Positions 3,451 to 39,402 of a DNA stretch of 64,000 nt are shown here, one piece after another. The notes beneath the pieces are model-generated. The model was given only the letters and a program-made list of their open reading frames with translations. It made no database searches and was not told the origin of the DNA. Numbering within the stretch: position 1 is the first letter of the stretch; each line of letters starts with the position of its first letter. The translations under genes and the position numbers were made by a program. The DNA is from Winogradskyella sp. KYW1333 (GTDB taxonomy: Bacteria; Bacteroidota; Bacteroidia; Flavobacteriales; Flavobacteriaceae): assembly GCF_003335675.1 (NCBI RefSeq), contig NZ_QPHL01000013.1:124001-188000 (forward strand), written 5' to 3'.

Positions 3451-3459
3451 AATTTTTTC

Positions 3460-4731: not shown

Positions 4732-4733
4732 TG

Positions 4734-10720: not shown

Positions 10721-10762
10721 CGACCTTAAAATTAATGACCACTAATTTAACCTAGAGTTACT

Positions 10763-12121: not shown

Positions 12122-12201
12122 TACTTAAACTTAACATTGAATAAAAAATTAAATTAACCTACTTAAGTTACATCCATTAACTTAACAAAAACAAAAAAAT
12201 T

Positions 12202-12834
12202 ATGGCACAAAAAGGTAAATTAACACTGACTAACATGATCTACGGATTAGGTGCGGCAATCGTAATCCTAGGAGCACTTTTTAAGATTCAACACTGGCCT
12301 TTTGGTTCTGAAATCTTAACATTAGGTATGATAGTAGAGGCATTGGTATTTGCATACTCTGCTTTCGAAAGACAACAAGCTGATCTTGATTGGTCATTAG
12401 TATATCCTGAGTTAGCAGGAGGAGCTACTACAGGTAAAAAGAAAAAAGAAGAGCCAAAAGATGCTGAAGGATTATTATCTAAGAAATTAGACAACCTATT
12501 AAAAGAAGCTAGAATTGATAGTGATTTAATGTCTAGTCTTGGAGAAAGCATTAAGAATTTTGAAGGTGCAGCAAAAAATATTTCGCCAACTGTAGATTCT
12601 TTAACTGCCCAAAAGAAATATAGCGAAGAGCTTTCTTTGGCAGCTGCACAAATGGAATCTTTAAATAGTCTTTATAAAGTTCAAATGGAGAGTGCCAACC
12701 GCCAGGCAGCAATTAATGAGGAAGCAGTGGAAAATGCTACTAAATTAAAAGAGCAAATGCAATCATTAGCATCAAACCTTTCATCATTAAATGGTGTATA
12801 TGGTGGTATGTTATCTGCTATGAACAAAAACTAA
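12202..12834 (+). CDS. gldL: Gliding motility / T9SS motor protein GldL
   Basis: Inner-membrane subunit that with GldM forms the proton-driven rotary motor powering type IX secretion and gliding. The 210-residue protein has two membrane helices at the N-terminus (about 9-26 and 33-52; NMIYGLGAAIVILGALFK and LGMIVEALVFAYSAFE) separated by the conserved KIQHWPFGSEIL turn, followed by a long cytoplasmic region with coiled-coil character (about 85-205). The glutamate in the second helix (MIVEALVF) is the residue expected to take part in proton flow in the family. It lies 80 bp after gldK and 46 bp before gldM. Confidence 0.95.
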   Translation: MAQKGKLTLTNMIYGLGAAIVILGALFKIQHWPFGSEILTLGMIVEALVFAYSAFERQQADLDWSLVYPELAGGATTGKKKKEEPKDAEGLLSKKLDNLLKEARIDSDLMSSLGESIKNFEGAAKNISPTVDSLTAQKKYSEELSLAAAQMESLNSLYKVQMESANRQAAINEEAVENATKLKEQMQSLASNLSSLNGVYGGMLSAMNKN

Positions 12835-26057: not shown

Positions 26058-26128
<71 letters not shown>

Positions 26129-26130
<2 letters not shown>

Positions 26131-26176
26131 CTAAAACAATAAAACGGTTATACTATTATAAAGTGTAACCGTTTTT
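26129..26176 (+). repeat. Repeat copy 1: tRNA-fMet 3' end plus terminator hairpin
   Basis: The element reads TACTAAAACAATAAAACGG, then TTATACT, a short loop, AGTGTAACCG and T5. The hairpin (26141-26176) has about 14 bp and serves as terminator of the tRNA. The same unit recurs at 31612, 32503, 33485 and 35381, always on the plus strand. Confidence 0.85.
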
Positions 26177-26290
26177 GTATTCGAATCATTCTTATTTCCT
26201 TTAAAGGAATGAATTAATCTAAATATAGGGTTGAGATTTAAGGTTCGATATGTCAAGGGTTTTATCTTTACTGAACAGGTTAACTTCATA

Positions 26291-26330
26291 AAAAAAGTTC
26301 GTTTAATGCTAACGAACTTTTTTCTTTATT
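26291..26330 (+). terminator. Orphan Rho-independent terminator
   Basis: Perfect 13-bp arms AAAAAAGTTCGTT/AACGAACTTTTTT (26291-26303, 26311-26323) with a 7-nt loop. No gene lies between it and the tRNA terminator; the 26177-26290 stretch shows no coding frame and may be the remains of something lost. The region from here to the regulator gene holds nothing else I can recognise. Confidence 0.7.
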
Positions 26331-26400
26331 TAAGAGGCAATAAATCAATACTTTATTTCGATTAATATTTAATTTAGATTAATGTTTAGTAATATTTTTT

Positions 26401-27474
26401 ATGATTGAATTATCTACAATAATTGACCTTGTAACTTTTGGATCTTCCATTATGTTTGGAATCCTATTTTTTTCTTCAAAGATTAAAAATAACAGCGGAA
26501 ATTTTTACTTGAGTTTATTTCTTTTTTGCATAGGTTATATAACCTTTAAAGGAATTGTATATGATATATATGAGCGAGAAATATTTCAATTCGATGTGTC
26601 ATTATTCTTTCTTATTTTTCTATTTTTTTATTTAAATAAAACAATAGGAAGAATCTTAAATTATTGGTGGTACTTGTTATTCGTTCCTGGAGTTTTAATA
26701 AATTTAACAATTTATTTTAAAAATCTAAATCAAATATTGATCCTTATTCATTTTCATGAAATTTTCTATCTATTTAATCTGTTTCTATTAGTATATTTTT
26801 TTAAAATTTTACATGTACATAATAGCCATGTTAAAGAGTTTTATTCTAATATTGAATCTAAAACGCTGTCATGGCTAAAATTAATTTTATTAATCGTTTT
26901 CTTTTTTCATTTTTTTGAGTTCATCGAAGCCCTTATCCCTACCAAAAGAGCTGATGATTTGGAAATACTGTTTTCTATTATTTATTCACTTATACCTTTT
27001 TCACTAGTTTATCTTATAGGTTTAAATGGGTTTTATCAATTCGAAATTTTTAGTGGTATTAGTTCAAATTATTTTATAGATAATTTTAATAAGAATATGT
27101 TTGTTCAATCAAAAAAACAATCAAAGAATGATTTTGAACAATTCAAACAAACAATCATCATAGAAAGATTATACGCTAAAAAAAACCTCACACTTTATGA
27201 TTTATCGATTGCATTGAAAATGAAAAAACGGGTTATTTCTATTTTAATTAATGATAATACAGATACTACCTTTTATCATTTCATCAACCAATTGCGAATA
27301 AAGGAATTTAAAAAACATTTAATAGAAGATGAGCATCAAAAATTCACTTTATTTGGTCTAGCTCAAGAAGTTGGTTTTTCGTCTAAATCTACATTTTATA
27401 CTTCCTTCAAATCTATTGAGGGAATGACTCCAAAACAATACCAATCAAAGTTAAAAAAGTCTGTTTCAACCTAA
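26401..27474 (+). CDS. Membrane-anchored AraC-family transcriptional regulator
   Basis: A 357-residue protein with about seven hydrophobic helices in the first 225 residues and an AraC/XylS DNA-binding domain at the C-terminus. The two helix-turn-helix units are seen as LTLYDLSIALKMKKRVISILIN (about 262-283) and FTLFGLAQEVGFSSKSTFYTSF (about 317-338), ending with the family's GMTPKQYQSKLK. Such 7TM-AraC proteins are common in Bacteroidota and probably sense a signal at the membrane. It lies upstream of, and in the same direction as, the cytochrome/YceI operon (76 bp gap), so it is a candidate regulator of it. Confidence 0.85.
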   Translation: MIELSTIIDLVTFGSSIMFGILFFSSKIKNNSGNFYLSLFLFCIGYITFKGIVYDIYEREIFQFDVSLFFLIFLFFYLNKTIGRILNYWWYLLFVPGVLINLTIYFKNLNQILILIHFHEIFYLFNLFLLVYFFKILHVHNSHVKEFYSNIESKTLSWLKLILLIVFFFHFFEFIEALIPTKRADDLEILFSIIYSLIPFSLVYLIGLNGFYQFEIFSGISSNYFIDNFNKNMFVQSKKQSKNDFEQFKQTIIIERLYAKKNLTLYDLSIALKMKKRVISILINDNTDTTFYHFINQLRIKEFKKHLIEDEHQKFTLFGLAQEVGFSSKSTFYTSFKSIEGMTPKQYQSKLKKSVST

Positions 27475-27550
27475 GCGCACTAGGTTTGTTTTTAAAATAA
27501 TTAATTTGATTTTAGTTTTGCTCATTCATTTAAAAACTTAATAAAAAATC

Positions 27551-27970
27551 ATGAAAAAATTAGCATTTACTTTCGTATTACTTTTTTCATTTGCATGTTC
27601 AAAAGACGACAACTCTAACTCTAATAATCAGGTTGATCCCATAATTGGTTCTTGGCAATCAAGTTTCACACTAACAGATGAGACAGAGGATGGAGAAGTA
27701 GTTAACATCTCTGCCAATGGGATAATCATATTTAATGCAGATGGCACTGGTTCTAGAAATCTATTAATTACAACTGATGGAGGTGTACCTCAAGAATCAA
27801 ATGAGACATTTGAATGGGAAAATCTATCTTCAGCACTTAATTCTTCCGAAACAACACAGAATTATTCCATAAATGGTGACGCTTTTACAGCGATATTCAC
27901 ATCCAATTTTAGTAGCTTTGTTTTATCTGAGGACAATGAAGATTTTCAAATTTCAATGACAAGAAATTAA
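27551..27970 (+). CDS. Lipocalin-like lipoprotein
   Basis: 139 residues; leader with lipobox LFSFACSKDDN (Cys 17) followed by an acidic +2 to +4 segment (SKDDN), typical of a surface-exposed or outer-membrane lipoprotein in this phylum. The body starts with IIGSWQSSFTLTDE and contains FNADGTG, features of the small lipocalin-like families of Bacteroidota. The ligand is unknown. First gene of the operon after the AraC regulator; 3 bp before the diheme lipoprotein. Confidence 0.7.
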   Translation: MKKLAFTFVLLFSFACSKDDNSNSNNQVDPIIGSWQSSFTLTDETEDGEVVNISANGIIIFNADGTGSRNLLITTDGGVPQESNETFEWENLSSALNSSETTQNYSINGDAFTAIFTSNFSSFVLSEDNEDFQISMTRN

Positions 27971-27973
27971 AAT

Positions 27974-28840
27974 ATGAACAGAGATTTTATTTTTATATTT
28001 TCATTAGTATTTACTGTTATAAGTTGCACCTCGCATGATATTACATCAAATTATGAACCTGTTACAGGTCGTAGTGCTGAGGATCATGCCTATGAATGTG
28101 AAGATGCTTTAGGACCACTTCCCAGATTTAGTTGTGCTGATGCAATTGAAGTCCCAACTACTAAAGATGGTGTTCCTGTAACATTTCCTGGTGGAGAAGA
28201 AGGTAGTGGGAGCACAGACCCTAGCGATTGTGACCTTCCTTGGGCTTTTGGTATGGCATGTCAAACAGGAAACAGGGTTGGCCGATATCAAGGCTTGAAT
28301 GTTGATGGAAGCGAAAATACAGATGTGGTTTTTATAACTTTTTGTAGAGATGGAGGACTCGGAGTTATAGGTTATAAGTTTTCTACTGGAGAAACTTGTT
28401 TCTTTTCTATTATTGATGGTGCCGATTCAAATAATACTCCCCTTCCTGGAGAAACAGGATATAATAATTCTTGGATGACTCCACAAGTAGTTGCTGATGA
28501 TAGATGTATGAATTGTCATATGGCAGACCCTTTTCTTCATACTCCTGCAATAGACCAGTTAAAAATTCCTAATACAGATGAATTATTAGTTCCAATAACA
28601 GCGAATGGCCCATACACTATTATTGGAGCAGAATTCCAACAACCAATAACTGCGAATTTTGATAATAATCAATGTGTGTCATGTCACCGTCCACAGTGTA
28701 CAACACATTTTCAAAATTATCCGTTAGATGAGTTAGTTATGCCCGCCCCGTTTCAGGACGCGACCAATTTTGACCATAGTAATATTGCCAATGCCGATAG
28801 ACAAGCCATCAGAGATTGGTGTGCAACTCTTGGGTTATGA
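27974..28840 (+). CDS. Diheme c-type cytochrome-like lipoprotein
   Basis: 288 residues, lipobox VISCTSH (Cys 18). Two heme c attachment motifs are present: CMNCH near residue 178 and CVSCH near 234, with a further histidine-rich stretch HRPQCTTHF. The region before (residues 25-170) is Cys-rich but has no CxxCH and no domain I recognise. Predicted to be anchored in the outer membrane or exposed in the periplasm and to transfer electrons. Downstream are a monoheme lipoprotein, a YceI-like protein and a beta-barrel protein, which suggests one redox assembly. No heme-lyase gene is present in the window. Confidence 0.75.
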   Translation: MNRDFIFIFSLVFTVISCTSHDITSNYEPVTGRSAEDHAYECEDALGPLPRFSCADAIEVPTTKDGVPVTFPGGEEGSGSTDPSDCDLPWAFGMACQTGNRVGRYQGLNVDGSENTDVVFITFCRDGGLGVIGYKFSTGETCFFSIIDGADSNNTPLPGETGYNNSWMTPQVVADDRCMNCHMADPFLHTPAIDQLKIPNTDELLVPITANGPYTIIGAEFQQPITANFDNNQCVSCHRPQCTTHFQNYPLDELVMPAPFQDATNFDHSNIANADRQAIRDWCATLGL

Positions 28841-28869
28841 AGTATTGGTGTTTAAATAATGATATTAAG

Positions 28870-29217
28870 ATGAAAAAAATAATACGTACTAGTATTTTAA
28901 TGATATTGATTTCAAGTTGTTCTGAGGGTTATATCCCCATTGAAGAAACGACACAAATTCCACCAGGTCCCGTTACTTACGAAACACATATTAGTCCAAT
29001 TATTTCTTCAAGATGTATTAGTTGTCATAGCGACAATAATCCTCAAGCGGGGGTTTTATTGGAAAACTATAATCAAGTTCGTAATTCTTCAGAAAATGGA
29101 TTACTTATTCAACGCATAAACGACCCTGCAGATCCTATGCCTGTCACAGGATTAATGCCACTTTCGACTAGAGTACTTTTTGATGAATGGAGCAATAATG
29201 GATATTTAGAAAACTAG
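28870..29217 (+). CDS. Monoheme c-type cytochrome-like lipoprotein
   Basis: The ATG at 28870 gives a leader with lipobox LISSCSEG and a 115-residue product; an ATG 54 bp upstream lies inside the preceding gene and adds a non-signal stretch. After VTYETHISPIISSRCISCHSD (heme motif CISCH near residue 49) comes NPQAGVLLENYNQV and, near the end, the segment MPVTGLMPLSTRVLFDEW, where the first or second Met could be the distal heme ligand. This layout is shared with small cytochrome domains that use the pattern I..RC..CH. It ends 2 bp before the YceI-like gene. Confidence 0.72.
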   Translation: MKKIIRTSILMILISSCSEGYIPIEETTQIPPGPVTYETHISPIISSRCISCHSDNNPQAGVLLENYNQVRNSSENGLLIQRINDPADPMPVTGLMPLSTRVLFDEWSNNGYLEN

Positions 29218-29219
29218 TG

Positions 29220-29768
29220 ATGAAAACAACTAAGATCTTAATTATTTTTTGTGTTTTATTATCACTGCAACTTCAAGCACAAAAATACTTTACTCGCTCA
29301 GGAATTACTCAATTTGAAGCCTCAGAAAAAGCTTTTGAGCCCATTGAAGCAATTAATAGTAGCACTACAGTACTATTAGATACTAACAATGGCAATATAG
29401 TCTCACAGGTTTTTATGGCAGGATTTCAATTTAAAAATGCCTTGATGCAAGAGCATTTTAACGAAAATTATATGGATAGCTATCAATACCCTAAAGCTAC
29501 ATTTAAAGGCAAGCTAGATAATTTTTCTATTGTCAGTTTAAATGCTAATAACAGTTATGATTTAAATGGAGTGCTTACCATAAAGGGTATCAAAAAAAAC
29601 ATTCAAACAATTGTATCTGTAAAAGTTGAAAACAATCGAATATTTATTTCAGGTAGTTTTTACGTAAACGCTAATGATTTCGACATCAAAATTCCTTCAA
29701 TTATTCGAGACAAAATTGCAAAGCAAATTGAAATCAGTATAAACTATGAACTCATTGAAAAAAAATAA
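29220..29768 (+). CDS. YceI-like secreted lipid-binding protein
   Basis: 182 residues with a signal peptide (LIIFCVLLSLQLQAQ) and a YceI-type lipocalin-like beta barrel: KYFTRSGITQFEASEKAF, MDSYQYPKATFKG and LNGVLTIKGIKKNIQTIVSV are the recognisable strands, and the end FDIKIPSIIRDKIAKQIEISI is typical. YceI proteins bind isoprenoid chains such as quinones, so a link with the neighbouring cytochromes is plausible. Start ATG at 29220 chosen over the GTG one codon before. Overlaps the next gene by 23 bp. Confidence 0.85.
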   Translation: MKTTKILIIFCVLLSLQLQAQKYFTRSGITQFEASEKAFEPIEAINSSTTVLLDTNNGNIVSQVFMAGFQFKNALMQEHFNENYMDSYQYPKATFKGKLDNFSIVSLNANNSYDLNGVLTIKGIKKNIQTIVSVKVENNRIFISGSFYVNANDFDIKIPSIIRDKIAKQIEISINYELIEKK

Positions 29769-30141
29769 ATCTTTCTTTATCATTTTTTCAATAATGATAA
29801 TTAGTATTAGCATAATTTCTATTTATCAATATATTTCTCTTGCCCCAAAAAAAGTTGTTGCAATAATACCTGAATATTCAGGAAATGCAAATGAATTCAA
29901 CTATTTAGTAACTGATAATCTTTCCTATTGGATAAGTAAAGTTGTTCAAATAACTGGAAAAGTTACACAGGTTAATGAGGATGGTATTTTACTTAATGGC
30001 ACCATATATTGTCAATTTGAAAACAAAAAGGATATCCAATCAATTATAGAAAATCAGAATATTGTGGTCAAAGGAAAATTGGTTGGGTTTGATGAATTAT
30101 TAATGGAAATAAAATTAAATCAATGTATTATTATTCAATAA
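29746..30141 (+). CDS. Membrane-anchored OB-fold protein (tRNA_anti-like)
   Basis: 131 residues: one N-terminal membrane helix (FFIIFSIMIISISIISIYQY, about 10-29) followed by a single OB-fold domain with VTDNLSYWISKVVQITGKVTQVNEDGILLNGTI and NIVVKGKLVGFDELLMEIKLNQC. Such OB proteins with an anchor are found in Bacteroidota beside YceI and beta-barrel genes; nucleic-acid binding is unlikely given the predicted extracytoplasmic location. Overlaps the YceI-like gene by 23 bp and the following gene by 19 bp, so the three are translated from one message. Confidence 0.72.
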   Translation: MNSLKKNKSFFIIFSIMIISISIISIYQYISLAPKKVVAIIPEYSGNANEFNYLVTDNLSYWISKVVQITGKVTQVNEDGILLNGTIYCQFENKKDIQSIIENQNIVVKGKLVGFDELLMEIKLNQCIIIQ

Positions 30142-31004
30142 AAAAATTGTTTTTAATAACAGTATTATCAGTTATTCCTTTCTTATGTGAAGCTCAGGAA
30201 GATGATTTGTTAAGAGAATTGGACAGTTTAAATCAAAATGAACCCAAATTTGAATTACCTGCTTTCAAAGCCCTTCAAATTGGTAATTTACAATCAACAA
30301 AAGTGGTTGATAAAGGCGATTTGTACTTAGTAGTAGCGCACCGCTTTGGAGTACTAAAAAATGGGATAGATGACTTTTTTGGATTAGACCAAGCCAATAC
30401 TAAAATTCAATTACTTTATGGTTTATTGCCAAATTTACAATTGGGATTTAGTAGAGATAGTTATGAAAAAACATACTCTGGAACTGCTAAATATAAGTTA
30501 TTCAGACAATCCGATAGAGTTCCTGTTAATGTTTCACTTTATGGTAGTGTGGATATGAATTCACAGCTCAAAAAAAGTTTATACCCTGGGCTAAAAACAT
30601 CTGATCGATTTTCATATACTGCACAAATTTTAGCATCAAGAAGTTTTTTAGAAAAACTTTCTTTAGAAGTAGCGCCTATTTTTGTACGTCATAATTTACA
30701 AGATTTGAATTTTACTAAAACTCAGACTCATAATCAACTACTTTTGGGGATGGGTGGACGCTATAAACTTTCTAAAAGATTGAGTTTGAATATGGACTAT
30801 GCCTATAATTTTAGTAAAAACAAGAATTCATTATATAAAAACCCTTTAACAATAGGGGTTGATATTGAAACAGGCGGTCATGTTTTTCAATTATTATTTA
30901 CCAACTCCAGAGCGAGTAATGATAGTAGTTTTTTAACAGAAACCACTGGAGATTGGTCTAAGGGTGAAATTTCATTTGGCTTCAACATTGTACGTGTATT
31001 TTAA
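30123..31004 (+). CDS. DUF5777-like outer-membrane beta-barrel protein
   Basis: 293 residues with a signal peptide ending at CEAQ. The segment KALQIGNLQSTKVVDKGDLYLVVAHRFG and the alternating amphipathic strands ending in ISFGFNIVRVF (terminal aromatic) fit an outer-membrane beta barrel, and the opening region matches what is known as DUF5777. It may form the outer-membrane scaffold for the cytochrome-like lipoproteins encoded upstream. Substrate and partners are not known. Confidence 0.75.
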   Translation: MYYYSIKKLFLITVLSVIPFLCEAQEDDLLRELDSLNQNEPKFELPAFKALQIGNLQSTKVVDKGDLYLVVAHRFGVLKNGIDDFFGLDQANTKIQLLYGLLPNLQLGFSRDSYEKTYSGTAKYKLFRQSDRVPVNVSLYGSVDMNSQLKKSLYPGLKTSDRFSYTAQILASRSFLEKLSLEVAPIFVRHNLQDLNFTKTQTHNQLLLGMGGRYKLSKRLSLNMDYAYNFSKNKNSLYKNPLTIGVDIETGGHVFQLLFTNSRASNDSSFLTETTGDWSKGEISFGFNIVRVF

Positions 31005-31057
31005 GTTAATTTTTATTAGTAGTTCAATTATACACTCAAATTAATATTCTTCTAAAT

Positions 31058-31390
31058 ATGTTTGAAAGGTTAAAAGCTAAATGGAATATTCATTCCAACG
31101 TTCAATTGATCATAATTTTTATTGTGTTTGCAATAACAGGAAGTTTAAGTTTAAAAATCACGAAACCTATTTTAATTTACATTGGGGTAGATTCAGGATA
31201 TTTTAAGACCTTTTTTTTAGGGTATTTTTTATATGTTCTTATTAGAATTTTAATACTATTTCCCGTATATCAAATATTACTTTTAGCCATCGGAACTTTA
31301 TTCGGTCAATTTGATTTTTTTTGGAATTTCACAAAAAATACATTAAGAAAGACCTTTCTTAAACTTATTAATAAAATTTTCTTTAAATGA
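31058..31390 (+). CDS. Small two- to three-helix membrane protein (DUF6787-like)
   Basis: 110 residues, basic, with hydrophobic helices at about 17-34, 45-65 and 66-84. The opening FERLKAKWNIHSNVQLIIIFIVFAITGSLS and the FPVYQILLLAIGTLFGQFDFFW segment are like a small membrane-protein family of Bacteroidota that I believe is DUF6787, though I am not certain of the number. No function known. It follows the beta-barrel gene by 53 bp and precedes a strong terminator. Confidence 0.7.
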   Translation: MFERLKAKWNIHSNVQLIIIFIVFAITGSLSLKITKPILIYIGVDSGYFKTFFLGYFLYVLIRILILFPVYQILLLAIGTLFGQFDFFWNFTKNTLRKTFLKLINKIFFK

Positions 31391-31439
31391 AAGATTTTAA
31401 AATACTTTGTTTTTCATGATGTTGTTTACTTGTTTTTTG

Positions 31440-31470
31440 AAAAGGGGTTGTTAGTTCAACCCCTTTTATT
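31440..31470 (+). terminator. Rho-independent terminator of the cytochrome/YceI operon
   Basis: Perfect 11-bp arms AAAAGGGGTTG/CAACCCCTTTT (31440-31450, 31457-31467) with a 6-nt loop and T-rich tail. Confidence 0.8.
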
Positions 31471-31542
31471 TCATATAGTTTGCTTTAATAAGTCTACTGT
31501 AGTGTAAAGTTGTGATGCAGGGTTATTCGTTCATGATAAGGG

Positions 31543-31665
31543 TCATTATATGATGGGTGTCGATTAAGTCTCTCGGAGTCAAACTTATGTTCGATATTTC
31601 CAATGAGTTATCTACTAAAACAATAAAACGGTTATACTTTTATAAAGTGTATCCGTTTTTTATTT
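31543..31665 (+). repeat. Long direct repeat A, including copy 2 of the tRNA-3'-end/hairpin unit
   Basis: About 123 bp nearly identical to 32434-32554. The first 70 bp (starting TCATTATATGATGGGTGTCG) differ by only about half a dozen substitutions; the stretch TCTACTAAAACAATAAAACG with the following GGTTATAC is identical in both. The last 49 bp (31612-31660) are the unit that follows tRNA-fMet, with hairpin and T6. The hairpin's right arm has GTGTATCC where copy 1 has GTGTAACC, which weakens one pair. The stretch 31471-31542 shows nothing else. Confidence 0.85.
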
Positions 31666-31672
31666 TTACAGC

Positions 31673-32374
31673 ATGTTAAAAAATATTATTTACATCTTTT
31701 CTGCGCTTCTGTTTGCCTCGTGTACCAAATCGACAAGCACTTCTTCTATCAAGGTTGTTGGTGAAATGAGAGACGTGATGTGGAAAGGAGATTTAAAAGG
31801 TAAGATTGCAACAGATTCATTAAATAACAAAGAAACCTATGGATTAGGACCTATTGAGTTTTTGAAAGGAGAGATAGTAGTATTTGAAGGACAAACATTT
31901 GTGTCGAAGGTTATTGACAGTGTTTCTCATCAGGTAACTAAAATTCCCTCAGTCAGGGCTCCCTTTTTTGTATACAGCACAAATAGTGATTTAAAAGTTG
32001 TTGAGCTTACTCTTGATAATTACTCGCTAAAAAAAATAGAAGAACACATTGATTCAGTCTATAAAAATTATGACCAACCTTTGTTAATACGTATTGATGG
32101 GGTTTTTAATAAAATGAAACTTCATAGTGTTAATTTACCTGATGGTGAGCAAGTATCATCGCCAGATGAAGCGCACCAAGGATTAACACAATATGATTTA
32201 AAAAATATTAGTGGATCTTTGATCGGCTTCTTTTCTCGAAATCATAAGGCAGTTTTTACGCATCATGACAGTTTTTTTCACGCACACTTTATTTCCAATG
32301 ATCGTGGAGTGTTAGGCCATATCGACGAAACCGATTTTAATTCTTCAAAAGTAATCTTGAAAGTTTCAAAGTAA
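31673..32374 (+). CDS. Acetolactate decarboxylase-family lipoprotein (exported)
   Basis: Family members turn 2-acetolactate into acetoin. The 233-residue protein has VVGEMRDVMWKGDLKGKIATD and YGLGPIEFLKGEIVVFEGQTF in its first part and, near 190-215, GSLIGFFSRNHKAVFTHHDS then FFHAHFISNDRGVLGHIDE; the His cluster (HAH and the later His before Ile-Asp) corresponds to the zinc ligands of AlsD/BudA. Unlike the classical cytoplasmic enzyme it starts with a lipoprotein leader (LLFASCTKS, Cys 17), so it should act outside the cytoplasm. It is the only gene between two long direct repeats; its ATG is 12 nt after the hairpin of repeat A. No acetolactate synthase gene is nearby. Confidence 0.82.
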   Translation: MLKNIIYIFSALLFASCTKSTSTSSIKVVGEMRDVMWKGDLKGKIATDSLNNKETYGLGPIEFLKGEIVVFEGQTFVSKVIDSVSHQVTKIPSVRAPFFVYSTNSDLKVVELTLDNYSLKKIEEHIDSVYKNYDQPLLIRIDGVFNKMKLHSVNLPDGEQVSSPDEAHQGLTQYDLKNISGSLIGFFSRNHKAVFTHHDSFFHAHFISNDRGVLGHIDETDFNSSKVILKVSK

Positions 32375-32433
32375 TTCTATGTCCATAAATTGGCATTCAA
32401 TTTTTCAACTATCTGAATATCTCAAAATTAGAC

Positions 32434-32554
32434 TCATTATGTGATGAGTGTCGATTAAGTCTCTCGGAGTTAAACTTATGTTCGCTATTTCGACTGATTT
32501 ATCTACTAAAACAATAAAACGGTTATACTATTATAGTGTAGCCGTTTTTTATTT
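32434..32554 (+). repeat. Long direct repeat B, including copy 3 of the tRNA-3'-end/hairpin unit
   Basis: Second copy of the ~120-bp repeat that also precedes the acetolactate decarboxylase gene. The hairpin (32503-32550) has a shorter loop than copies 1 and 2 (TATTATAGTG) and GTAGCC in the right arm. It serves as terminator for the decarboxylase gene. From here to 32693 there is no coding frame of note. Confidence 0.85.
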
Positions 32555-32693
32555 ACATCGATGGGACTAAGGCATCATTCGTTTAATTATTAGCATCATT
32601 TCATTTTACTTCCTTTGAAATATCCAAAATATGTTTAATTTTAAATAAATTATCCTAGTGGATTAACATTTAAAAATTGATAATAAAAATATT

Positions 32694-33077
32694 ATGAGTA
32701 TTAAAAGAGGAAACCTTGGTTTTCATGTATCATTTGTAGTGCCAAATGAGGCTACGGAAAGAATGGATCAGTTTATTACAACACATGAACAGTTTATGCG
32801 GGAAACCCATCACCTATCTGGTGATCAAGAACCCATTATTTTATCTTATTCTGTATTTAAGTCCCCAGAATTGAATAATCCTTTCGATCCTAATAGTGGT
32901 GAAACAGGAAACACACTTTATGGTTTAACAGAAATTTATAATGGCCCTGAAGGTGTTCAGGCTCATATGACTTTAGGTCAGCAACGTGAAGCTATGTTTG
33001 CTGAATTAGTAGACTTAACAAACACATATAGTGTTGCAGGAATTCTCGGAGCACCTGTAATCGCGGCAATGGAATAA
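32694..33077 (+). CDS. ABM-like dimeric alpha/beta-barrel protein
   Basis: 127 residues, no signal peptide. The pattern GFHVSFVVPNEATERMDQFI near the start and TLYGLTEIYNGPEGVQAHMTLGQ near 80-102 follow the antibiotic-biosynthesis-monooxygenase (ABM) fold, in which the motif xExYxxxxxxxxH precedes the second helix. A proline/asparagine-rich insertion (SPELNNPFDPNSGETGN) lies between strands. Function unknown; ABM proteins act as cofactor-free oxygenases, heme-degrading enzymes or signal-bearing folds. It lies in a module bounded by repeat copies 3 and 4. Confidence 0.6.
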   Translation: MSIKRGNLGFHVSFVVPNEATERMDQFITTHEQFMRETHHLSGDQEPIILSYSVFKSPELNNPFDPNSGETGNTLYGLTEIYNGPEGVQAHMTLGQQREAMFAELVDLTNTYSVAGILGAPVIAAME

Positions 33078-33137
33078 TTAAAACTTATTTTAATTTATCA
33101 AATTATTTAGCGGTGCTGCAACTTTAAATATTAGTAG

Positions 33138-33156
33138 TTGTAGATTGCATCTACAA
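33138..33156. promoter_or_regulatory. Inverted repeat upstream of the 87-residue ABM-like gene
   Basis: Perfect 8-bp arms TTGTAGAT/ATCTACAA with a 3-bp spacer, 26 bp before the start codon. It could be an operator or a leader hairpin; it lacks a T tract and so is not a terminator. Confidence 0.4.
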
Positions 33157-33182
33157 GCTATTTTAACTTTAAATAAATAAAA

Positions 33183-33446
33183 ATGAATTTAGTAATTAAA
33201 GGGAAATGCACGTCAAGTTATGACGCGGTATATAAAGACTTTATTGAATTGTCAGAAACAAGAGCACAATGTTGTGATGAATCTAAGACAACAATTAGTA
33301 AAATAGACAATAATAACTTTGTTGTTCTATTGTTTGATGTTGACATGAGTAAATTGAAAGAAATATTATCTACTCCTGAAAGAGCTGAAGTAATTAAAAA
33401 GAACGGTATTTCAAATGAAATGTTTCAATTTACGTCTTTGGGATAA
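33183..33446 (+). CDS. Small ABM-like (ferredoxin-fold) protein, unknown function
   Basis: 87 residues, cytoplasmic by prediction. Alternating strand-helix pattern NLVIKGKCTSSYDAVYKDFIELSETRAQCC, TTISKIDNNNFVVLLFDVD, MSKLKEILSTPERAEVIKKNGI fits a beta-alpha-beta ferredoxin-like fold, as in ABM or stress-responsive A/B-barrel proteins. A CC pair sits in the first helix. Ends 33 bp before repeat copy 4. Confidence 0.55.
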   Translation: MNLVIKGKCTSSYDAVYKDFIELSETRAQCCDESKTTISKIDNNNFVVLLFDVDMSKLKEILSTPERAEVIKKNGISNEMFQFTSLG

Positions 33447-33478
33447 AGGTGTAAAAATATGTTTTGATATTTGGAATA

Positions 33479-33531
33479 TTCCCGCTACTCAAAAAATAAA
33501 ACGGTTATACTATTATAGTGTAACCGTTTTT
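33479..33531 (+). repeat. Repeat copy 4: exact tRNA-fMet terminal 11-mer plus hairpin
   Basis: TTCCCGCTACT (33479-33489) is identical to the last bases of the tRNA-fMet gene and its first downstream bases (26122-26132). The AATAAAACGG/CCGTTTTT hairpin follows. Upstream, ATGTTTTGATATTTGGAATA resembles the matching part of repeats A and B. Lying between convergent genes, with A- and T-runs on opposite sides, the hairpin can stop transcription from both directions. Confidence 0.82.
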
Positions 33532-33556
33532 GATTTTATTCCTAGAAAATTTAGCG

Positions 33557-34096
33557 CTACATTAATTTACCTAAGAATACCTGTGCTCTGGAATTAAAAG
33601 GATTTCCGCTAGCTCTTCTATTTGATGCGATTTGTCCGGTATGCCAGATAGCATCTGATAAGGGACCGTTAATAGCATTCCAAAATGGAAAAGACATACT
33701 TTGACCACCGAAATTAATTTTTACTGAGACTTCAGAGATTTTAACTTCTTTTATTAGCATATCAGACATTTTTTTAAGATTTAACAATGTCTTAGTTCTA
33801 TATTCACTAAAGGACATTTCATATTTAGTTTCTGTAGGATACTCTTTATTATGAAATGCATAAATGACCATTTCTGTTAAGCCATAAATATGCTCTAAAA
33901 CATCTAATGAAGATCGACTATCGTCACTAGGCTTGTATGAGAGGTCAATATCTCTTAGGCCATCAGTGGCCCAGTAATATCTAAACCCTAAACCTTCAAT
34001 TAATCGGGTGATTACTGTTTCAGTGGTAAAATTATCAGCATAGGGGCCTATCTCAGAAAAAGGTAATGATTCATTGGTTTTTTCAGACTCTTTCAT
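33557..34096 (-). CDS. DinB/YfiT-like four-helix metal-binding protein
   Basis: 179 residues in the DinB superfamily: helical throughout, with an N-terminal segment ETVITRLIEGLGFRYYWATDGL, a first His in VLEHIYGLTEMVIYAFHN and the second His pair region in SDAIWHTGQIASNRRASGN, matching the three-histidine metal site. Members include bacillithiol-dependent transferases and thiol-dependent detoxification enzymes. Only leftward gene between the tRNA and 43.6 kb; its end faces repeat copy 4. Confidence 0.78.
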   Translation of the reverse strand: MKESEKTNESLPFSEIGPYADNFTTETVITRLIEGLGFRYYWATDGLRDIDLSYKPSDDSRSSLDVLEHIYGLTEMVIYAFHNKEYPTETKYEMSFSEYRTKTLLNLKKMSDMLIKEVKISEVSVKINFGGQSMSFPFWNAINGPLSDAIWHTGQIASNRRASGNPFNSRAQVFLGKLM

Positions 34097-34233
34097 AATA
34101 TATAATTTAATTGTTTAAAGTTTTAATTATCAAAATAGACAGTTTATTACATAATAAATATACTTGTTATATTATAACTTGCAAAATACAATTAATAATT
34201 TTATGTTTGATGTAAATCAATATATCAAAAATC

Positions 34234-35361
34234 ATGAAAAAATTATTTATTATTCTAGTTTTGAGTTCGAGTATTTCTAATGCTCAATGGATTCAAAAAT
34301 CATCTTGTAAGAAGAGTGCTGAAAAAATCACTAACGCAGCAATAGAATCAATAGCGAACCTTGAGTATTTATCTGCCATGGGAATTGCCAAGGCAGCACT
34401 GTTGTTAGATCCAAATTGTGGATGTGCCCAACTAGTTTTAGCTGCTGTTAGTAGTCCAAACCCAAATTGGGGAAGTCAAAAATCAAAGCTTGAAGCTATA
34501 GATGTTTCAAAACTTAGTGCTGAAGAAAAAACATGGCATAGTTTTCTTATGACCTCCCGAGAAGATAGACCTGATGTTGCAAAATCAGCAATGGCAGAAC
34601 ATCCGGAAAGTCCCTTAATTAACTGGTTGGCTACAACACCAGCTGATTTTAATACTTTTAAAACATTTGCTGAAAAATTTCCTGAGCAAGCGTCGGCATC
34701 TTATAATATGATGTCGTATGCTTATTTAAGAGGAGATTATGGTGAGCCAAATCAAGAGATGGCAATGGATTATGTAGAACGTTCTCAACAGATGCACTAT
34801 GGACCAAACTCTTATGATTCAATGGCAGAACACTATGCATCTATAGGGGAATATCAAAAAGCACTAGAACTTCAATTGAAAGCAGTTGATTTTGCCCAAT
34901 TTGGTTCCCCTTATTGGAATTTTGCAAGAATATATTATGCAAAAGTGAACCAAGAGGATATCTCTAAACAATTAATAAAAAATCAAAAAGAAGCTCAAGA
35001 TGCAATAACAGCAAATGACTATGAGACATATTCAAAGTTTATGCATCCAGATATTAATCATATGACAGGAGATTCTAATTTGTCACCATTTTATACGTTT
35101 AATAAAGCCTCATTTGAGAGGGAACGAGTAATTACTTGGAAAAGTTTTGAATTAGAAAATATGGATGTGAATTATTCTCCAGATATGAAAACAGCTGTTC
35201 TCACATTTTATGCATCAGGAAGTTATATTTTTAATGATACCGACAAAGAGGTTGCTTACAGTACAAGAGGTTCTTCCGTTTGGGTTAACACTGATCAAGG
35301 ATGGAAAATTATGCATAGCTCATGGGCTCCTAATAAAAATGGAGTTGGAATACCTGAATAA
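34234..35361 (+). CDS. Secreted TPR protein with C-terminal NTF2-like domain
   Basis: 375 residues with a signal peptide (LFIILVLSSSISNAQ). Residues about 25-245 are helical repeats of TPR type (YLSAMGIAKAALLLDPNCGCAQLVLAAV, DSMAEHYASIGEYQKALELQLKAVDFA). From about 260 to the end the protein has the NTF2-like/DUF4440 pattern: EAQDAITANDYETYSKFMHPDINHMTGD, ending TAVLTFYASGSYIF and SSVWVNTDQGWKIMHSSWAPN. Fusion of both domains in one exported protein is not rare in Bacteroidota. It opens the series of NTF2-like proteins that continues to 43.6 kb. Ends 19 bp before repeat copy 5, which is its terminator. Confidence 0.75.
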   Translation: MKKLFIILVLSSSISNAQWIQKSSCKKSAEKITNAAIESIANLEYLSAMGIAKAALLLDPNCGCAQLVLAAVSSPNPNWGSQKSKLEAIDVSKLSAEEKTWHSFLMTSREDRPDVAKSAMAEHPESPLINWLATTPADFNTFKTFAEKFPEQASASYNMMSYAYLRGDYGEPNQEMAMDYVERSQQMHYGPNSYDSMAEHYASIGEYQKALELQLKAVDFAQFGSPYWNFARIYYAKVNQEDISKQLIKNQKEAQDAITANDYETYSKFMHPDINHMTGDSNLSPFYTFNKASFERERVITWKSFELENMDVNYSPDMKTAVLTFYASGSYIFNDTDKEVAYSTRGSSVWVNTDQGWKIMHSSWAPNKNGVGIPE

Positions 35362-35380
35362 TTATTTAAATAGGTTTGTT

Positions 35381-35426
35381 TACTGAAACAATAAAACGGT
35401 TATACCATTAAGGTGTAACCGTTTTT
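35381..35426 (+). repeat. Repeat copy 5: hairpin unit with compensatory base change
   Basis: TACTGAAACAATAAAACGG followed by the hairpin. In this copy TACC pairs with GGTG where copies 1, 3 and 4 have TACT with AGTG, a compensatory change that keeps the stem. It ends 12 nt before the start codon of the next gene. Confidence 0.8.
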
Positions 35427-35438
35427 GTATTTTTATAT

Positions 35439-35708
35439 ATGTCAAAAAAAATGTTCTATCCTCTTTCTCTGTTGTTAATTCCATTAATTGGGATGTCTAT
35501 CACTAATGAGATCAACTGGAGTCCATTTGATTTCATTATTATGGGTTCTCTACTCTTTTTGCTAAGTATTGGAATTAATTTTATGAGTAACCGAACAAAT
35601 AATGTAAAAAACCGCCTTTTATACATTGGAATATTAGTTTTAATATTTATGTTAATATGGGCAGAGTTGGCAGTAGGTATTCTTGAAACTCCTTTTGCAG
35701 GCAGTTAA
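35439..35708 (+). CDS. Small membrane protein, three helices
   Basis: 89 residues, hydrophobic stretches at about 7-23 (YPLSLLLIPLIGMSITN), 30-47 (FIIMGSLLFLLSIGINF) and 61-80 (LLYIGILVLIFMLIWAELAVG). The conserved-looking WAELAVGI.ETPFAGS end matches small membrane proteins seen in flavobacteria. No function known. The ATG is only 12 nt after the T-run of repeat copy 5, so it needs read-through or a start within the repeat. Confidence 0.7.
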   Translation: MSKKMFYPLSLLLIPLIGMSITNEINWSPFDFIIMGSLLFLLSIGINFMSNRTNNVKNRLLYIGILVLIFMLIWAELAVGILETPFAGS

Positions 35709-36002
35709 GTTAGTAATCGATTACGTTGTACGTTACCTTTAAATAATGGACTTAGGATAATCAAAATTAATATGTTTCAATCTCTTATCAATAATATTGA
35801 TAATTCTATTAAAATAAAAGAGTACATTCTAAGTTGAAAAAGGATTTTTCAGTTTTGATAAGAAGATCTGACTAGCTAAATGGATTCTATTTCTGTCATA
35901 TTATCGAATAAAGAATGACATTATCGATTTAAGTTGCAAAAAGCAATTAATAATTCGAGTTTGTATTTCAATAAAAAATTTAAGAAATCAAATCAATTAA
36001 TT
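35709..36002. other. Non-coding gap before the AhpD-like gene
   Basis: 294 bp, AT-rich, without a plausible gene on either strand. An in-frame ATG at 35934 would extend the next gene by 23 residues, but its signal peptide begins at 36003, so this stretch is read as leader and promoter region. No convincing TAnnTTTG box was found. Confidence 0.5.
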
Positions 36003-36450: not shown

Positions 36451-36876
36451 ATGAAAAAAGTAGTTTATGTATTGTTCTTGTTTGTAAGTGTTTCGTTTGC
36501 ACAAGATTTAAAATGGGATTCAAGTGCATTGATAAATGCAGAATTTATAATCGATGCTGTTCATACCAAAGATGGAGTAAATTATGAATTATCTGCCACA
36601 GGTGAGGCAGGACCTTATGGGAGAGTTTATTTATCTTATGTATTTACAAACCATAATGACAGTATGGAAAGCGGTGAATTTACCGGTTATATATGGACTC
36701 AAATGGAAGAAGAAATTATAAAAGGAACAACACAAGGTGTTTATAGAAAACAAGGTAAAGTATTTAAAATGTATGCACTTGATAACCTTACTAATGAAAA
36801 AACATATATAGTTAGTGGTATCGCTGACTTTGTAAACAAAACATTGAAATTTAAAGCATCTGAAGTAAAAGAGTAA
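36451..36876 (+). CDS. Secreted beta-rich protein, unknown function
   Basis: 141 residues with a signal peptide ending at SFAQ. The mature part alternates beta strands (NYELSATGEAGPYGRVYLSYVFT, SGEFTGYIWTQMEEEIIKGTTQGVYRKQGKVFKMYALDNLTNEK; shown in part) and resembles allene-oxide-cyclase-like or DUF3224-type small barrels in its GYGRV...GEFTG...G layout, but I cannot place it with certainty. It is 2 bp before the next lipoprotein gene and clearly co-transcribed. Confidence 0.65.
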   Translation: MKKVVYVLFLFVSVSFAQDLKWDSSALINAEFIIDAVHTKDGVNYELSATGEAGPYGRVYLSYVFTNHNDSMESGEFTGYIWTQMEEEIIKGTTQGVYRKQGKVFKMYALDNLTNEKTYIVSGIADFVNKTLKFKASEVKE

Positions 36877-36878
36877 TT

Positions 36879-37394
36879 ATGAAATATTTAAAAATTATAT
36901 TATTGGTATTAGTTGTCTCCTGTGAAACTGGGGAAACGGTTAAAGATATATCATCCGAAAATCAATTAAAATTTAAAGAAAATACAGAACGAATTAAATC
37001 TATGTTGGCAGCTATGTCGGCAGAAGAAAGCGATAAGTTTTCTCAGTATTTTGCAGATTCATTAAAATGGAGTGGTCCAGATAAAATCTTAATAGATGAT
37101 TATGAAACTAAGGAGGTTTTAATGGCAGCATTAGACGGTTATATAGCCATGTATGATAATCACGAGTTAAGGGATATAAAGTTTTTTGGTGGCAGCACCT
37201 ATAGTTCAGAAGAAACAAGTGATAATCCTAATGATATTAGAGTTTACGGTAATTGGCACCATACGCATGCTGAAACTGGTAAGGCAGTAAGTCATAAATG
37301 GATGGCCTTAATGCGTTTCAATAGTGATGGTCAGATTTATTTATTTAACGATTTTTTTGATGTTACTGGATTTTTGAGTCAGCATTTAAACTAA
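36879..37394 (+). CDS. NTF2/SnoaL-like lipoprotein
   Basis: 171 residues; short leader with lipobox LVVSCETGE (Cys 15). The body shows the NTF2-like arrangement: first helices (NTERIKSMLAAMSAEESDKFSQYFADSLKWSGPD), VLMAALDGYIAMYDNHELRDIKFFG and the long strands RVYGNWHHTHAETGKAVSHKWMALMRFNSDGQIYLFNDFFDVTGF. The HHTHAETGK turn, also found in the 39403 and 38504 gene products as TGK(Q/Y)...S, suggests a common subfamily. Substrate unknown. Confidence 0.7.
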   Translation: MKYLKIILLVLVVSCETGETVKDISSENQLKFKENTERIKSMLAAMSAEESDKFSQYFADSLKWSGPDKILIDDYETKEVLMAALDGYIAMYDNHELRDIKFFGGSTYSSEETSDNPNDIRVYGNWHHTHAETGKAVSHKWMALMRFNSDGQIYLFNDFFDVTGFLSQHLN

Positions 37395-37407
37395 AAAACT
37401 ATACCTT

Positions 37408-37932
37408 ATGAATACTATAAAACCCCCATTATACTGCTTGATATGCTTCATTTTAATGTTAGGATGTCAACAAAGTAGTATAGAATCAGTAGATACATCT
37501 GCTGGTTTTATTTTAGATGGTCCCAATAAGAATTCAAATTATGCCTTAGGTAGTAATCAGGCAGCAGAATTAGCGGTTTCCTTTTCTAATGCATTTGTGA
37601 ACAAGGATTATAATTTTATGTCTAAAGAGAATTTTAGGGATTCAATGTTTTTTTATCCTGAGAAAGGATTGGAAAAATTAGTTTTTGATTTAGATACTGG
37701 AATCTCTCTAATTAAATCAATGCATGCACCTTATGATTCAATAACACGCACTATAGAAGAGGTAATTCCATTAATACCTTCTTATGATAATACCTTGAAT
37801 AAAATTATGTTATCGTTTACAGAGAATAGATATACAAAAGATGGATCAATAGAAACTTACAGATTTTTTGAGCAACATTATATTCAAGACAATAAAATTA
37901 TAGGAGTTAGGAAATGGGTGCAATCCGAATAA
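37408..37932 (+). CDS. NTF2-like lipoprotein, divergent
   Basis: 174 residues, lipobox LMLGCQQS (Cys 20). The segment LGSNQAAELAVSFSNAFVNKDYNFMSKENFRDSMFFYP followed by strands LNKIMLSFTENRYTKDGSIETYRFFEQHYIQDNKIIGVRKWVQ fits the NTF2-like fold and parallels the first half of the gene product at 41054 (which has AYSIGNDAMADKLLMLSEAYSEKNTEE). Lies 13 bp after the preceding lipoprotein gene. Confidence 0.65.
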   Translation: MNTIKPPLYCLICFILMLGCQQSSIESVDTSAGFILDGPNKNSNYALGSNQAAELAVSFSNAFVNKDYNFMSKENFRDSMFFYPEKGLEKLVFDLDTGISLIKSMHAPYDSITRTIEEVIPLIPSYDNTLNKIMLSFTENRYTKDGSIETYRFFEQHYIQDNKIIGVRKWVQSE

Positions 37933-37989
37933 AAATCAAATTAAAAACAAAGACAGTTTTTAAACTACTATCAAATAAAATTTAAAACA

Positions 37990-38496
37990 GTGAAAAACTT
38001 ATTATTTATTTTGATTTTAATTACATTTTCGTGTAATCAAGATCAAAAAACTAAAACAAAAGAGCATACAGAAAAAATAGAGTATATATATGAAGCATCA
38101 TACCTAGACAATGTTAATATTGGGAATAATGAATTGGTTTTAAAAATCCAGCAAATGCATCAATATCTTATAGATAAAGATTTTCAGATGGCCTCAACTT
38201 TTTTTTCAGATGATATTATTTTTATCCTTGAGGATGGTTATATTTTAGAGGGTAAAGCAACTGTTATGAAGCATATGACTGACAACTTTTCATTAATTAA
38301 AATTCAAGATTATGAAGTGGATATAAACTTTTCAGTAACAGGTGATAACGGAGACGAGTGGGTGCTTCTTTGGGATAATGCTAAAATTGTACTTCCTGAT
38401 GGTAATTCAGCTAAATATGATTGGATGGAAGCTTTCCAGTTTGTTAACGGGAAAATAACTAAAATAAATCAGTTCTCAAGACCAATAATCAAATAA
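37990..38496 (+). CDS. NTF2/SnoaL-like lipoprotein (GTG start)
   Basis: 168 residues starting with GTG; leader LLFILILITFSCNQDQK, Cys 15. NTF2-like features: LKIQQMHQYLIDKDFQMASTFFSDDIIFILEDGYILEGKATVMKHM, then WVLLWDNAKIVLPDGNSAKYDWMEAFQFVNGKITKINQFSRPI. The second segment has the typical last three strands of SnoaL-like domains. Positioned 57 bp after the previous lipoprotein gene and 7 bp before the next. Confidence 0.72.
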   Translation: MKNLLFILILITFSCNQDQKTKTKEHTEKIEYIYEASYLDNVNIGNNELVLKIQQMHQYLIDKDFQMASTFFSDDIIFILEDGYILEGKATVMKHMTDNFSLIKIQDYEVDINFSVTGDNGDEWVLLWDNAKIVLPDGNSAKYDWMEAFQFVNGKITKINQFSRPIIK

Positions 38497-38503
38497 CTTA
38501 AAA

Positions 38504-39370
38504 ATGAAAAAAATAATTATTCTTATACTAGGTTTGTCATTGTATACATGTAACGAGCCTTACGCTAATCTTACAACTAACGATGAAAAATCTCAAATAA
38601 TAAAAACTTTATTTCAAAAAGTTGGTGAGGAAAATATTGATTATTTAAAAGAAATATTTTCTGATAGTATGCAATTTATTGATCCACACGGTAATAAGCT
38701 TGATAAGTTAGGGTTTATTGCAGGGGTAGAAAATCTATACGATCTGTTTGATGAAATAACGGTGGAAAACATGGATGGAGATGCATTAGGATCAGAGGTT
38801 GAAACCGCTACCTACAATAACGGTATTGTTTGGACTAATATTTGGAATACTTTCTCTGCCACAGGCAAATATACTGGTCAAAGTGTAGCTTTTCCATTTC
38901 ATATATCATATCAATGGGAGGGAGATAAAATTATAAAAGAGGTTCAATTTTTTGATACATCAGTAATTGAAAAAGAAATGAATGCAAAAGATGCAGCAAA
39001 TAATACATCACAAAAAGTGGTTGCCAATATAGATATGACGGTTAATCCAGGTTACTCTACAGAAGATGTAAAAGCATTTTTAGAAAAATTAAACAATTTT
39101 ATCCGTACGAAGGAACCCAACACTTATGACTATAGTTATTTTATTTCTGAAGATGGCAAACGCATTACTTTAATTGAAAAATTTAGAACGTCAGAAGATT
39201 TTATTTACCATGTTGATAATTTTGAGAATGGACCCAACATTGCAACTTTCATGAAAATGTTTACATTTAAATCTTTTGTAATTGCTGGTAATACTTCTGA
39301 AGGCTTGAGAGAGCGCATCAAAGCTTATCCTGTAGATTACCGTGGTAATATCGGTGGTTGGATATATTAA
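38504..39370 (+). CDS. Two-domain lipoprotein: NTF2-like plus ABM-like
   Basis: 288 residues, lipobox LSLYTCNEP (Cys 16). Residues about 25-155 are NTF2-like (KTLFQKVGEENIDYLKEIFSDSMQFIDPHG, NGIVWTNIWNTFSATGKYTGQSVAFPFHISYQWEGDKIIKEVQFFDTSV). From about 165 on there is an ABM-like domain: VVANIDMTVNPGYSTEDVKAFLEKLNNFIRT, YDYSYFISEDGKRITLIEKFRTSEDFIYHVDNF, where EKF..SEDFIYHV is the ABM E-x-H pattern. Fusion of both small folds in one exported lipoprotein is shared with the next gene. Ends 32 bp before it. Confidence 0.72.
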   Translation: MKKIIILILGLSLYTCNEPYANLTTNDEKSQIIKTLFQKVGEENIDYLKEIFSDSMQFIDPHGNKLDKLGFIAGVENLYDLFDEITVENMDGDALGSEVETATYNNGIVWTNIWNTFSATGKYTGQSVAFPFHISYQWEGDKIIKEVQFFDTSVIEKEMNAKDAANNTSQKVVANIDMTVNPGYSTEDVKAFLEKLNNFIRTKEPNTYDYSYFISEDGKRITLIEKFRTSEDFIYHVDNFENGPNIATFMKMFTFKSFVIAGNTSEGLRERIKAYPVDYRGNIGGWIY

Positions 39371-39402
39371 TTTTAAATACTTTAACTAATAAATTATATA
39401 AT

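Follow-up and report, generated by a model that had tools for sequence, protein, structure and literature searches.

Here, we analysed a 64,000-nucleotide stretch of the genome of Winogradskyella sp. KYW1333 (contig NZ_QPHL01000013.1, positions 124,001 to 188,000; hereafter the window), in which the initiator tRNA gene (tRNA-fMet) is followed by a short repeat that recurs between unrelated groups of genes. This region is quite probably a tandem array of cassettes without a recombinase of their own, which were inserted at tRNA-fMet by a large serine recombinase (LSR) acting in trans. The cassette units, their crossover site, their sharing and shuffling between genomes and an LSR element with matching ends can all be read from the DNA sequence. 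Handles beginning with G and L below are our own, for genomes and loci.

A motif search of the window with CTACTAAAACAATAAAACGG returned five plus-strand copies with at most two mismatches, starting at 26128, 31612, 32503, 33485 and 35380, and allowing up to three mismatches gave five matches compared with a mean of 0.01 in 100 shuffled sequences. Every copy is followed on its 3' side by a hairpin and a T-run, and the first overlaps the end of the tRNA-Met (CAT) gene placed by ARAGORN at 26058–26131. The five-copy unit described in an initial annotation of this DNA is thereby confirmed, with its middle three start positions correct and the first and last one base off. Its interpretation as repeated tRNA 3' ends was not supported, as the left half of the unit is usually not tRNA. 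Copies 2 and 3 have only CTACT(A) in common with the tRNA end, copy 5 even less (TTACT), and copy 4 is the sole one that keeps 11 bases of it (TTCCCGCTACT), as had been annotated. Copies 2 and 3 are also alike for about 80 bases upstream of CTACTA (a 114-nt pair, 89% identity), so the repeat is longer than first noted and the tRNA is part of copy 1 only. Each repeat is a junction at CTACTA rather than a copy of the tRNA end: its right half, a terminator hairpin module (T), opens a cassette, and its left half is either tRNA-fMet (copy 1) or an approximately 88-bp module (B) that closes the preceding cassette. The left half of copy 4 has a B-like core joined to a tRNA-like end, and at that of copy 5 no B is recognisable. 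Searching the whole genome for the 17-mer with at most two mismatches returned the five locus copies and three scattered two-mismatch matches, with two matches for a reversed control pattern; the unit is thus confined to this locus and is not a generic terminator.

The two halves of the junction keep company with different neighbours. Among the copies collected from other genomes (see below), T identity was 0.889 when the right-hand cassette was the same (145 pairs), 0.832 when only the left one was (90 pairs) and 0.834 when neither was (9643 pairs), and none of 200 label permutations reached the first of these values. B identity was 0.883 with the same left cassette (68 pairs), 0.758 with the same right cassette only (20 pairs) and 0.744 with neither (2430 pairs). 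T moves with the right-hand cassette and B with the left-hand one, which locates the crossover at CTACTA. Over 50 distinct upstream contexts, the conservation of B reaches from the junction to about position −88, with an almost invariant core (GTTCGATATTTC). Read on the reverse strand, 82 of 87 non-redundant copies of B have an open frame (mean of 32 and maximum of 45 after shuffling), and the information at the three codon positions (0.93, 1.19 and 0.61) follows a protein-like pattern, so B descends from the final codons of a gene that has its body on the far side of the junction. In the consensus fold of T, a covariation check found only four pairs, two of them invariant. An integrase C-terminus was tried as the source of B and rejected: a B-peptide profile scored at most 2.1 bits in the best 11 of 17 recombinases, and among open frames of at least 90 residues other than B copies the lowest E-value was 0.047. 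No full-length chromosomal gene ending in the B peptide was found among 99 relatives, which gave only B copies and weak matches, nor was one found in phages.

A search for frames that enter the tRNA end in the B frame recovered recombinase genes running antisense into tRNA-fMet or a tRNA copy and ending in antisense-tRNA residues, with PF07508 confirmed in one of the two tested. Candidatus Arcticimaribacter forsetii (NZ_OU342399.1, L338 and L339) has an intact antisense LSR of 549 aa (Resolvase 66.9 bits, Recombinase 30.1, zinc ribbon 25.9) with its stop codon inside tRNA-Met. In G306, the LSR gene lies at 10749–12398 on the minus strand and the tRNA at 10717–10790 on the plus strand, and a 213-aa Resolvase-only protein is also encoded. 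The A. forsetii element measures 10.8 kb, with the LSR at the tRNA-fMet end and B at the other; past the LSR come genes for a small serine recombinase and a type I restriction enzyme, and at a distance of 10,829 bp stands B, followed by a T cassette. When the ends of this element are rejoined on paper, the LSR frame runs straight on into the B peptide, and B reads as the reverse-strand tail of an LSR gene. At a second locus, in G174, a 3' fragment of an LSR adjoins the tRNA and B stands at the opposite end, and a third, in G820, holds within about 200 nt the tRNA, an LSR tail (86% over query positions 500–549) joined at GTTCGATAT to a B-type end, and a T hairpin, as if the LSR body had been deleted between two GTTCGATAT copies. 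Remnants of the LSR tail occur beside T of copy 1 in the window (30 residues), likewise in L191, and in L175. The remnant region of the window is 80% identical over 196 nt, tRNA included, to the LSR 3' region of NZ_OU342399.1, and the first module of the array is best read as a decayed LSR element because of this tail beside T of copy 1. No second small serine recombinase was seen among the window open reading frames (ORFs) searched. LSR homologues were present in 44 of 397 genomes of the family; long stretches with such a homologue in G255, G173 and G865 had no clear B. The motif GTTCGATAT, with which the B core starts, stands at 26243–26251 in the tail remnant of the window and also in the LSR 3' region of A. 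forsetii, and may be a second binding site or a deletion hot spot. Other LSR genes have 3' ends antisense into tRNA-Leu, tRNA-Met or tRNA-Asn (L342, L347, L348 and L351), so this overlap may be a general habit.

Beyond the window, the exact 23-mer of the repeat was found in at least 119 stretches in the collection of genomes; almost all of these carry a Bacteroidota label, and most have names that point to a marine source. Among the matches listed, the commonest labels were Flavobacteriaceae, Cryomorphaceae, Vicingaceae, Flammeovirgaceae, Cyclobacteriaceae and unnamed Bacteroidetes, and a single Rhodothermaeota record and a single Neomarinimicrobiota record are possibly misbinned. Viral contigs contained no exact 23-mer. 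A 20-mer searched phylum-wide matched 1 of 395 genomes, the source genome itself, so Bacteroidota as a whole do not share this system. Since a complete chromosome (NZ_OU342399.1), the record of a single-cell genome (SCGC AAA160-P02) and long-contig metagenome-assembled genomes (MAGs) all contain arrays, these are unlikely to be an artefact of assembly. Querying 199 family genomes with positions 31380–35440 recovered window modules elsewhere at 90–96% nucleotide identity, in L125 in opposite order, together with further repeat arrays. Once neighbours had been merged and three duplicates removed, 131 loci remained, 128 of them with a copy; one duplicated pair was L140 of G075 and L246 of a record labelled Winogradskyella (CAJQQC010000068.1). 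The set holds 230 copies, of which regular-expression calls assigned 75 directly to a tRNA (73 to tRNA-Met), 95 to a B left half, 17 to a tRNA 3' fragment and 43 to other types, some of the last being clearly degenerate B or tRNA cut by a contig end. The T hairpin is present in 71 of the 73 tRNA-Met copies; the other two have another terminator.

Cassettes delimited in this way (excluding non-B, non-tRNA copies scoring below 20) are widely shared: 61 of 90 fall into 15 clusters common to several records and in differing orders, a result unchanged after merging the records of one assembly. Those ending in B (n = 70) have a median length of 852.5 bp (range 444–5484). The cluster of the decarboxylase cassette described below comprises nine loci including the window, two of them arrays of a tRNA-Asn type, and this cassette is 87–95% identical over at least 763 nt at nine other loci. 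MAGs labelled Cryomorphaceae and Flammeovirgaceae have cassettes up to 98% identical, whereas the identity of Era among three array-bearing genomes is 64–69%. Genes run along the array direction in 54 cases and against it in 20. The 61 cargo proteins matched 25 Pfam families at E 1e-12, none a recombinase, and one matched the integron-associated Cass2 family (PF14526); a scan at E 0.001 covered the best 25 of 73 families. With PADLOC, HTH, RmrA, capH and DrmC-type matches fell on one to three proteins each, and no defence system was seen among these matches (61 proteins, best 25 of 35 families).

An alternative that we consider distinctly unlikely is homologous recombination between the 140-bp repeats after DNA uptake, with the junctions as mere landmarks. 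The repeats are long enough for it, and some of the right-hand region has diverged from L201 through events at 8–9-bp direct repeats. Among 140 cross-record pairs of related cassettes, homology started within 5 nt of the junction in 56 and continued into the left module in 47, and it began inside the cassette in 37, as homologous recombination would allow. Against it count that T and B do not part from their cassettes, as would be expected with breakpoints at CTACTA, that neighbouring copies share their orientation in 99 cases and oppose it in none, and that 71 T copies have the tRNA as their left half.

Several variants of the arrays were observed. L126, L141, L190 and L244 (G181, G072 and two named records) have the same T hairpin with a left half resembling the tRNA-Asn end; in L244 the hairpin stands directly at tRNA-Asn, and L126 has cassette bodies up to 99.9% identical to those of tRNA-fMet arrays, without B. 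These tRNA-Asn-type arrays are a sister system. Another left-half type, ...GAATCCA(A/G)(C/T)TCCCGCTACTA, lies about 160 nt after tRNA-Met in L166, L168 and L213, which would fit a very short element between the tRNA and the array. In L128, L291, L292 and L127 (G205), tRNA-fMet and the array are separated by a 48-kb block, phage-like judging solely from its gene layout, which has a short tRNA fragment at its end.

From these units and ends we infer catalysis in trans, circular intermediates and an order of insertion. A cassette would consist of T, one or few genes and B, and as a circle it would carry an attP of the form B, CTACTA, T. The LSR of an autonomous element would integrate this circle at the CTACTA that ends the tRNA gene, after which T would serve as the tRNA terminator and insulate the cassette, with B marking the far end. 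In autonomous elements, the recombinase gene would lie antisense against the tRNA with attP within its 3' end, and integration would exchange the recombinase tail, from one encoded by B to one encoded by the antisense tRNA. The window array would have lost its recombinase, leaving the remnant, with its right side now decaying, and the cassettes would be derivatives that keep only the two ends.

A number of observations weigh against insertion by an LSR in trans. Neither circles nor transfer were observed, and the tandem B/T joints are not readily explained by a strictly unidirectional serine integrase, for which reuse of attL as a target, multi-cassette circles or a permissive enzyme are candidate routes. 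The source genome has no PF07508 recombinase, and such a gene is present in only 8 of 66 array-linked genomes, two of which (G306 and G072) have it at tRNA-fMet. The LSR–B link consists of three loci and the remnants only; no B is recognisable within 20–40 kb of the tRNA-Met LSRs of G153, G160 and G072 (20 kb for G072), and the hairpin of the autonomous element (CTACTACACAAGACGG...) differs from that of the cassettes (CTACTAAAACAATAAAACGG...). The 37 of 140 shared pairs not starting at the junction also belong here, as do the nature of the sequences, mostly MAGs under the taxon labels of their own records, and the proportions of copy types, which are not natural frequencies because the loci were gathered mostly through the T motif or window DNA.

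Applied to the window, the proposed insertion of cassettes at tRNA-fMet gives the following features:

26058–26131, plus strand: tRNA-fMet (CAT), the putative integration target (attB half); ARAGORN and Rfam RF00005
26128–26176, plus strand: junction 1, tRNA, CTACTA and the T terminator hairpin (attL-like); motif search
26164–26253, minus strand: antisense coding remnant of an LSR C-terminus beside and overlapping T; tblastn, 63% over 30 aa, E 4.6e-5
26128–31611, plus strand: module 1, 5.5 kb, read as a decayed LSR element
31524–31611, plus strand: B closing module 1 (putative LSR-tail half of attP)
31612–32502, plus strand: cassette 2, 891 bp, with T, an alpha-acetolactate decarboxylase gene (31673–32374, PF03306) and B (32415–32502)
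32503–33484, plus strand: cassette 3, with T and two small ORFs (32694–33077 and 33183–33446), the left half at its end a degenerate B/tRNA hybrid
33485–35379, plus strand: module 4, with T, a minus-strand 179-aa ORF (33557–34096) and a TPR/NTF2-like 375-aa ORF (34234–35361)
35380–35973, plus strand: module 5, with T and an 89-aa ORF (35439–35708), its B end lost or unrecognisable

Module 1 encodes an AraC-type regulator, c-type-cytochrome-like proteins (weak Pfam matches), YceI, DUF5777 and DUF6787. The module contents are roughly those initially annotated, except that DinB is only a Pfam match below the cut-off and the two ABM-like genes have no Pfam match. Cassette 3 is 96% identical over 763 nt to L125, and relatives of the 89-aa ORF of module 5 occur elsewhere as B-ended cassettes of 450–489 bp. 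The right-hand modules, at copies 4 and 5, are decayed. L201 has the TPR/NTF2 gene and part of an NTF2 cluster in common with the window at 98% identity, and it is without the 89-aa cassette (a change between CAATAAAA repeats) and without a CMD gene (at ATGAAAAAA repeats), which suggests that decay through short repeats came after site-specific insertion. A run of NTF2/SnoaL-like genes at 36451–40206 is 89–98% identical to L201 and partly to L250, where one of them forms a separate cassette; the run suggests older cassettes with decayed joints.

The tRNA-fMet locus itself is variable within the genus. Its left flank is the same in all 20 same-genus genomes compared (a small protein, an LRR protein, then tRNA-fMet, with the end of an efflux gene where covered), and no window module was found within 4–18 kb to the right of the tRNA in these genomes with one exception in L081, an acetolactate decarboxylase of 37% identity at a distance of 13.8 kb. 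The two outcomes that the initial annotation had named as contrary to its proposal, a fixed gene order in relatives and a hairpin spread through the genome as a generic terminator, were thus both absent, and serial site-specific insertion at the initiator tRNA by a trans-acting recombinase is supported. A query of tRNA plus hairpin (123 positions) aligned over at least 120 positions in only 2 of 68 genus genomes, the source genome and G075. The window genes at 45860 and 47259 are Era and Der, respectively, and the distance from tRNA-fMet to the start of Era is 0.5 kb in G025 (another family), 1.5 kb in G076, 19.7 kb in the window and up to more than 70 kb in others, so the variable region of the genus lies between tRNA-fMet and Era, at about 26.1–45.8 kb in the window. 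G305 and G306 differ in having Era 5' of the tRNA.

This tRNA is a genuine hot spot for islands: by our count, 16 same-genus genomes have an extra copy of the tRNA 3' half, mostly 43–51 nt long, 9–109 kb downstream on the same contig. These repeats mark other, classic islands. That decayed islands of this ordinary tyrosine-integrase type left the repeated tRNA ends in the window is very improbable, since the source genome has no tRNA-half copy, its matches being the tRNA and four partial copies, and the window repeat conserves T and B rather than the tRNA. The window contig of the source genome (G000) has no PF00589 gene, and as neither a distal tRNA 3'-half repeat nor an integrase is found there, it was not assigned to the classic islands.

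Movement of the cassettes by a tyrosine integrase, in an integron-like layout, is likewise unlikely. In G307, G308 and G309, an integrase of 347–366 aa (fragmented in G309) adjoins the tRNA-Met copy that starts the array and reads away from it, a full copy of it is also present in L172, and the family occurs in 7 of 199 genomes, where judging from positions G102, G205, G219 and, weakly, G269 also have repeat matches. Against these associations, the integrase sits on islands of 5–6.5 kb with a near-complete distal tRNA copy, and its relatives lie beside other tRNAs (judged by eye, with only one of them called by ARAGORN), which makes the 3' half of the tRNA, and not CTACTA, the attachment block of this integrase. 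The family has no match in G000 at E 1e-20, and the coding frame of B would be left unexplained. Conserved C-terminal fragments of a tyrosine integrase (23–30 aa, opposite to the array where one was seen) are present in the array-linked loci L271, L142, L139, L265 and L289 (G309). Separately, an 18,022-bp stretch with two tyrosine recombinases (L296:1388–19409 and L297:1–18022) is 99.98% identical between the window's genome and a Polaribacter MAG (OX044355.1), which points either to a mobile element of very recent date or to an error in binning.

Cassette insertion by an LSR offers a concrete and testable way for marine Bacteroidota with small genomes to gain single genes one by one, and suggests that integron-like shuffling can rest on serine instead of tyrosine recombinases. 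An LSR gene whose tail is swapped on integration would be a simple handle on the control of directionality, and the B and T modules could be used to mine uncharacterised cargo genes. With about even confidence, we propose a second, integron-independent cassette economy, in which cassettes of about 1 kb, dependent on a serine recombinase and anchored at tRNA genes of the initiator (and asparagine) type, are traded across orders of marine Bacteroidota, with attP inside the recombinase gene and integration rewriting the tail of the enzyme and maybe switching its direction or activity.

No description of arrays of such cassettes in Bacteroidota was found in the titles and abstract openings of the literature searched. 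Like integrons, the arrays are rows of small units in one orientation with a recombination module at the end and are shuffled between lineages; unlike in integrons, a terminator opens each cassette and genes lie in both orientations. Integron attC sites have RYYYAAC...GTTRRRY boxes, and such pairs were found in 6 of 74 B/T copies per strand compared with 1 and 1 in one shuffled set, which is above chance with most copies lacking them. The integrase of G307 scored 20 bits against the integron integrase model TIGR02249 (cut-off 265), and no integron integrase lies at the window array. The arrays were accordingly not classed as integrons, for all their likeness in behaviour. Staphylococcal cassette chromosome (SCC) elements, moved by Ccr serine recombinases, are LSR elements able to stack at the 3' end of a gene, some without a recombinase, and differ from the tRNA-fMet arrays in target gene, cassette size and gene number. 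The LSR scored 46 bits against NCBIfam CcrB (cut-off 900) and is related to the Ccr family without belonging to it.

The closest described system is that of the ssrA islands of Dehalococcoides (DsiB/DsiA; McMurdie 2011, PMC3146451), which lie in tandem behind an RNA gene, the target being the tmRNA gene with a 20-bp direct repeat. The gene of their left-end LSR, of about 540 aa, always extends with its 3' end over both attL and the RNA gene. A further, small serine recombinase is present, 15 of 31 islands are without the integration module, and this module includes ParB, Mom and RecF-like genes (PMC3146451). The same overlap of LSR 3' end, attL and RNA gene is seen in G306, and in the window as a remnant only; tandem islands, many without a recombinase, and a second small serine recombinase (in G306) are further likenesses. 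Unlike the Dehalococcoides islands, which as described there belong to one bacterial group, the present arrays are targeted to tRNA-fMet, have only CTACT(A) common to tRNA and B instead of a repeat of about 20 bp, consist of B-ended cassettes with a median of about 852 bp that have a conserved module of 88 bp at their ends, and are spread over several orders. The arrays of the type seen in the window are therefore best read as a new variant of tandem islands like those at Dehalococcoides ssrA and of SCC.

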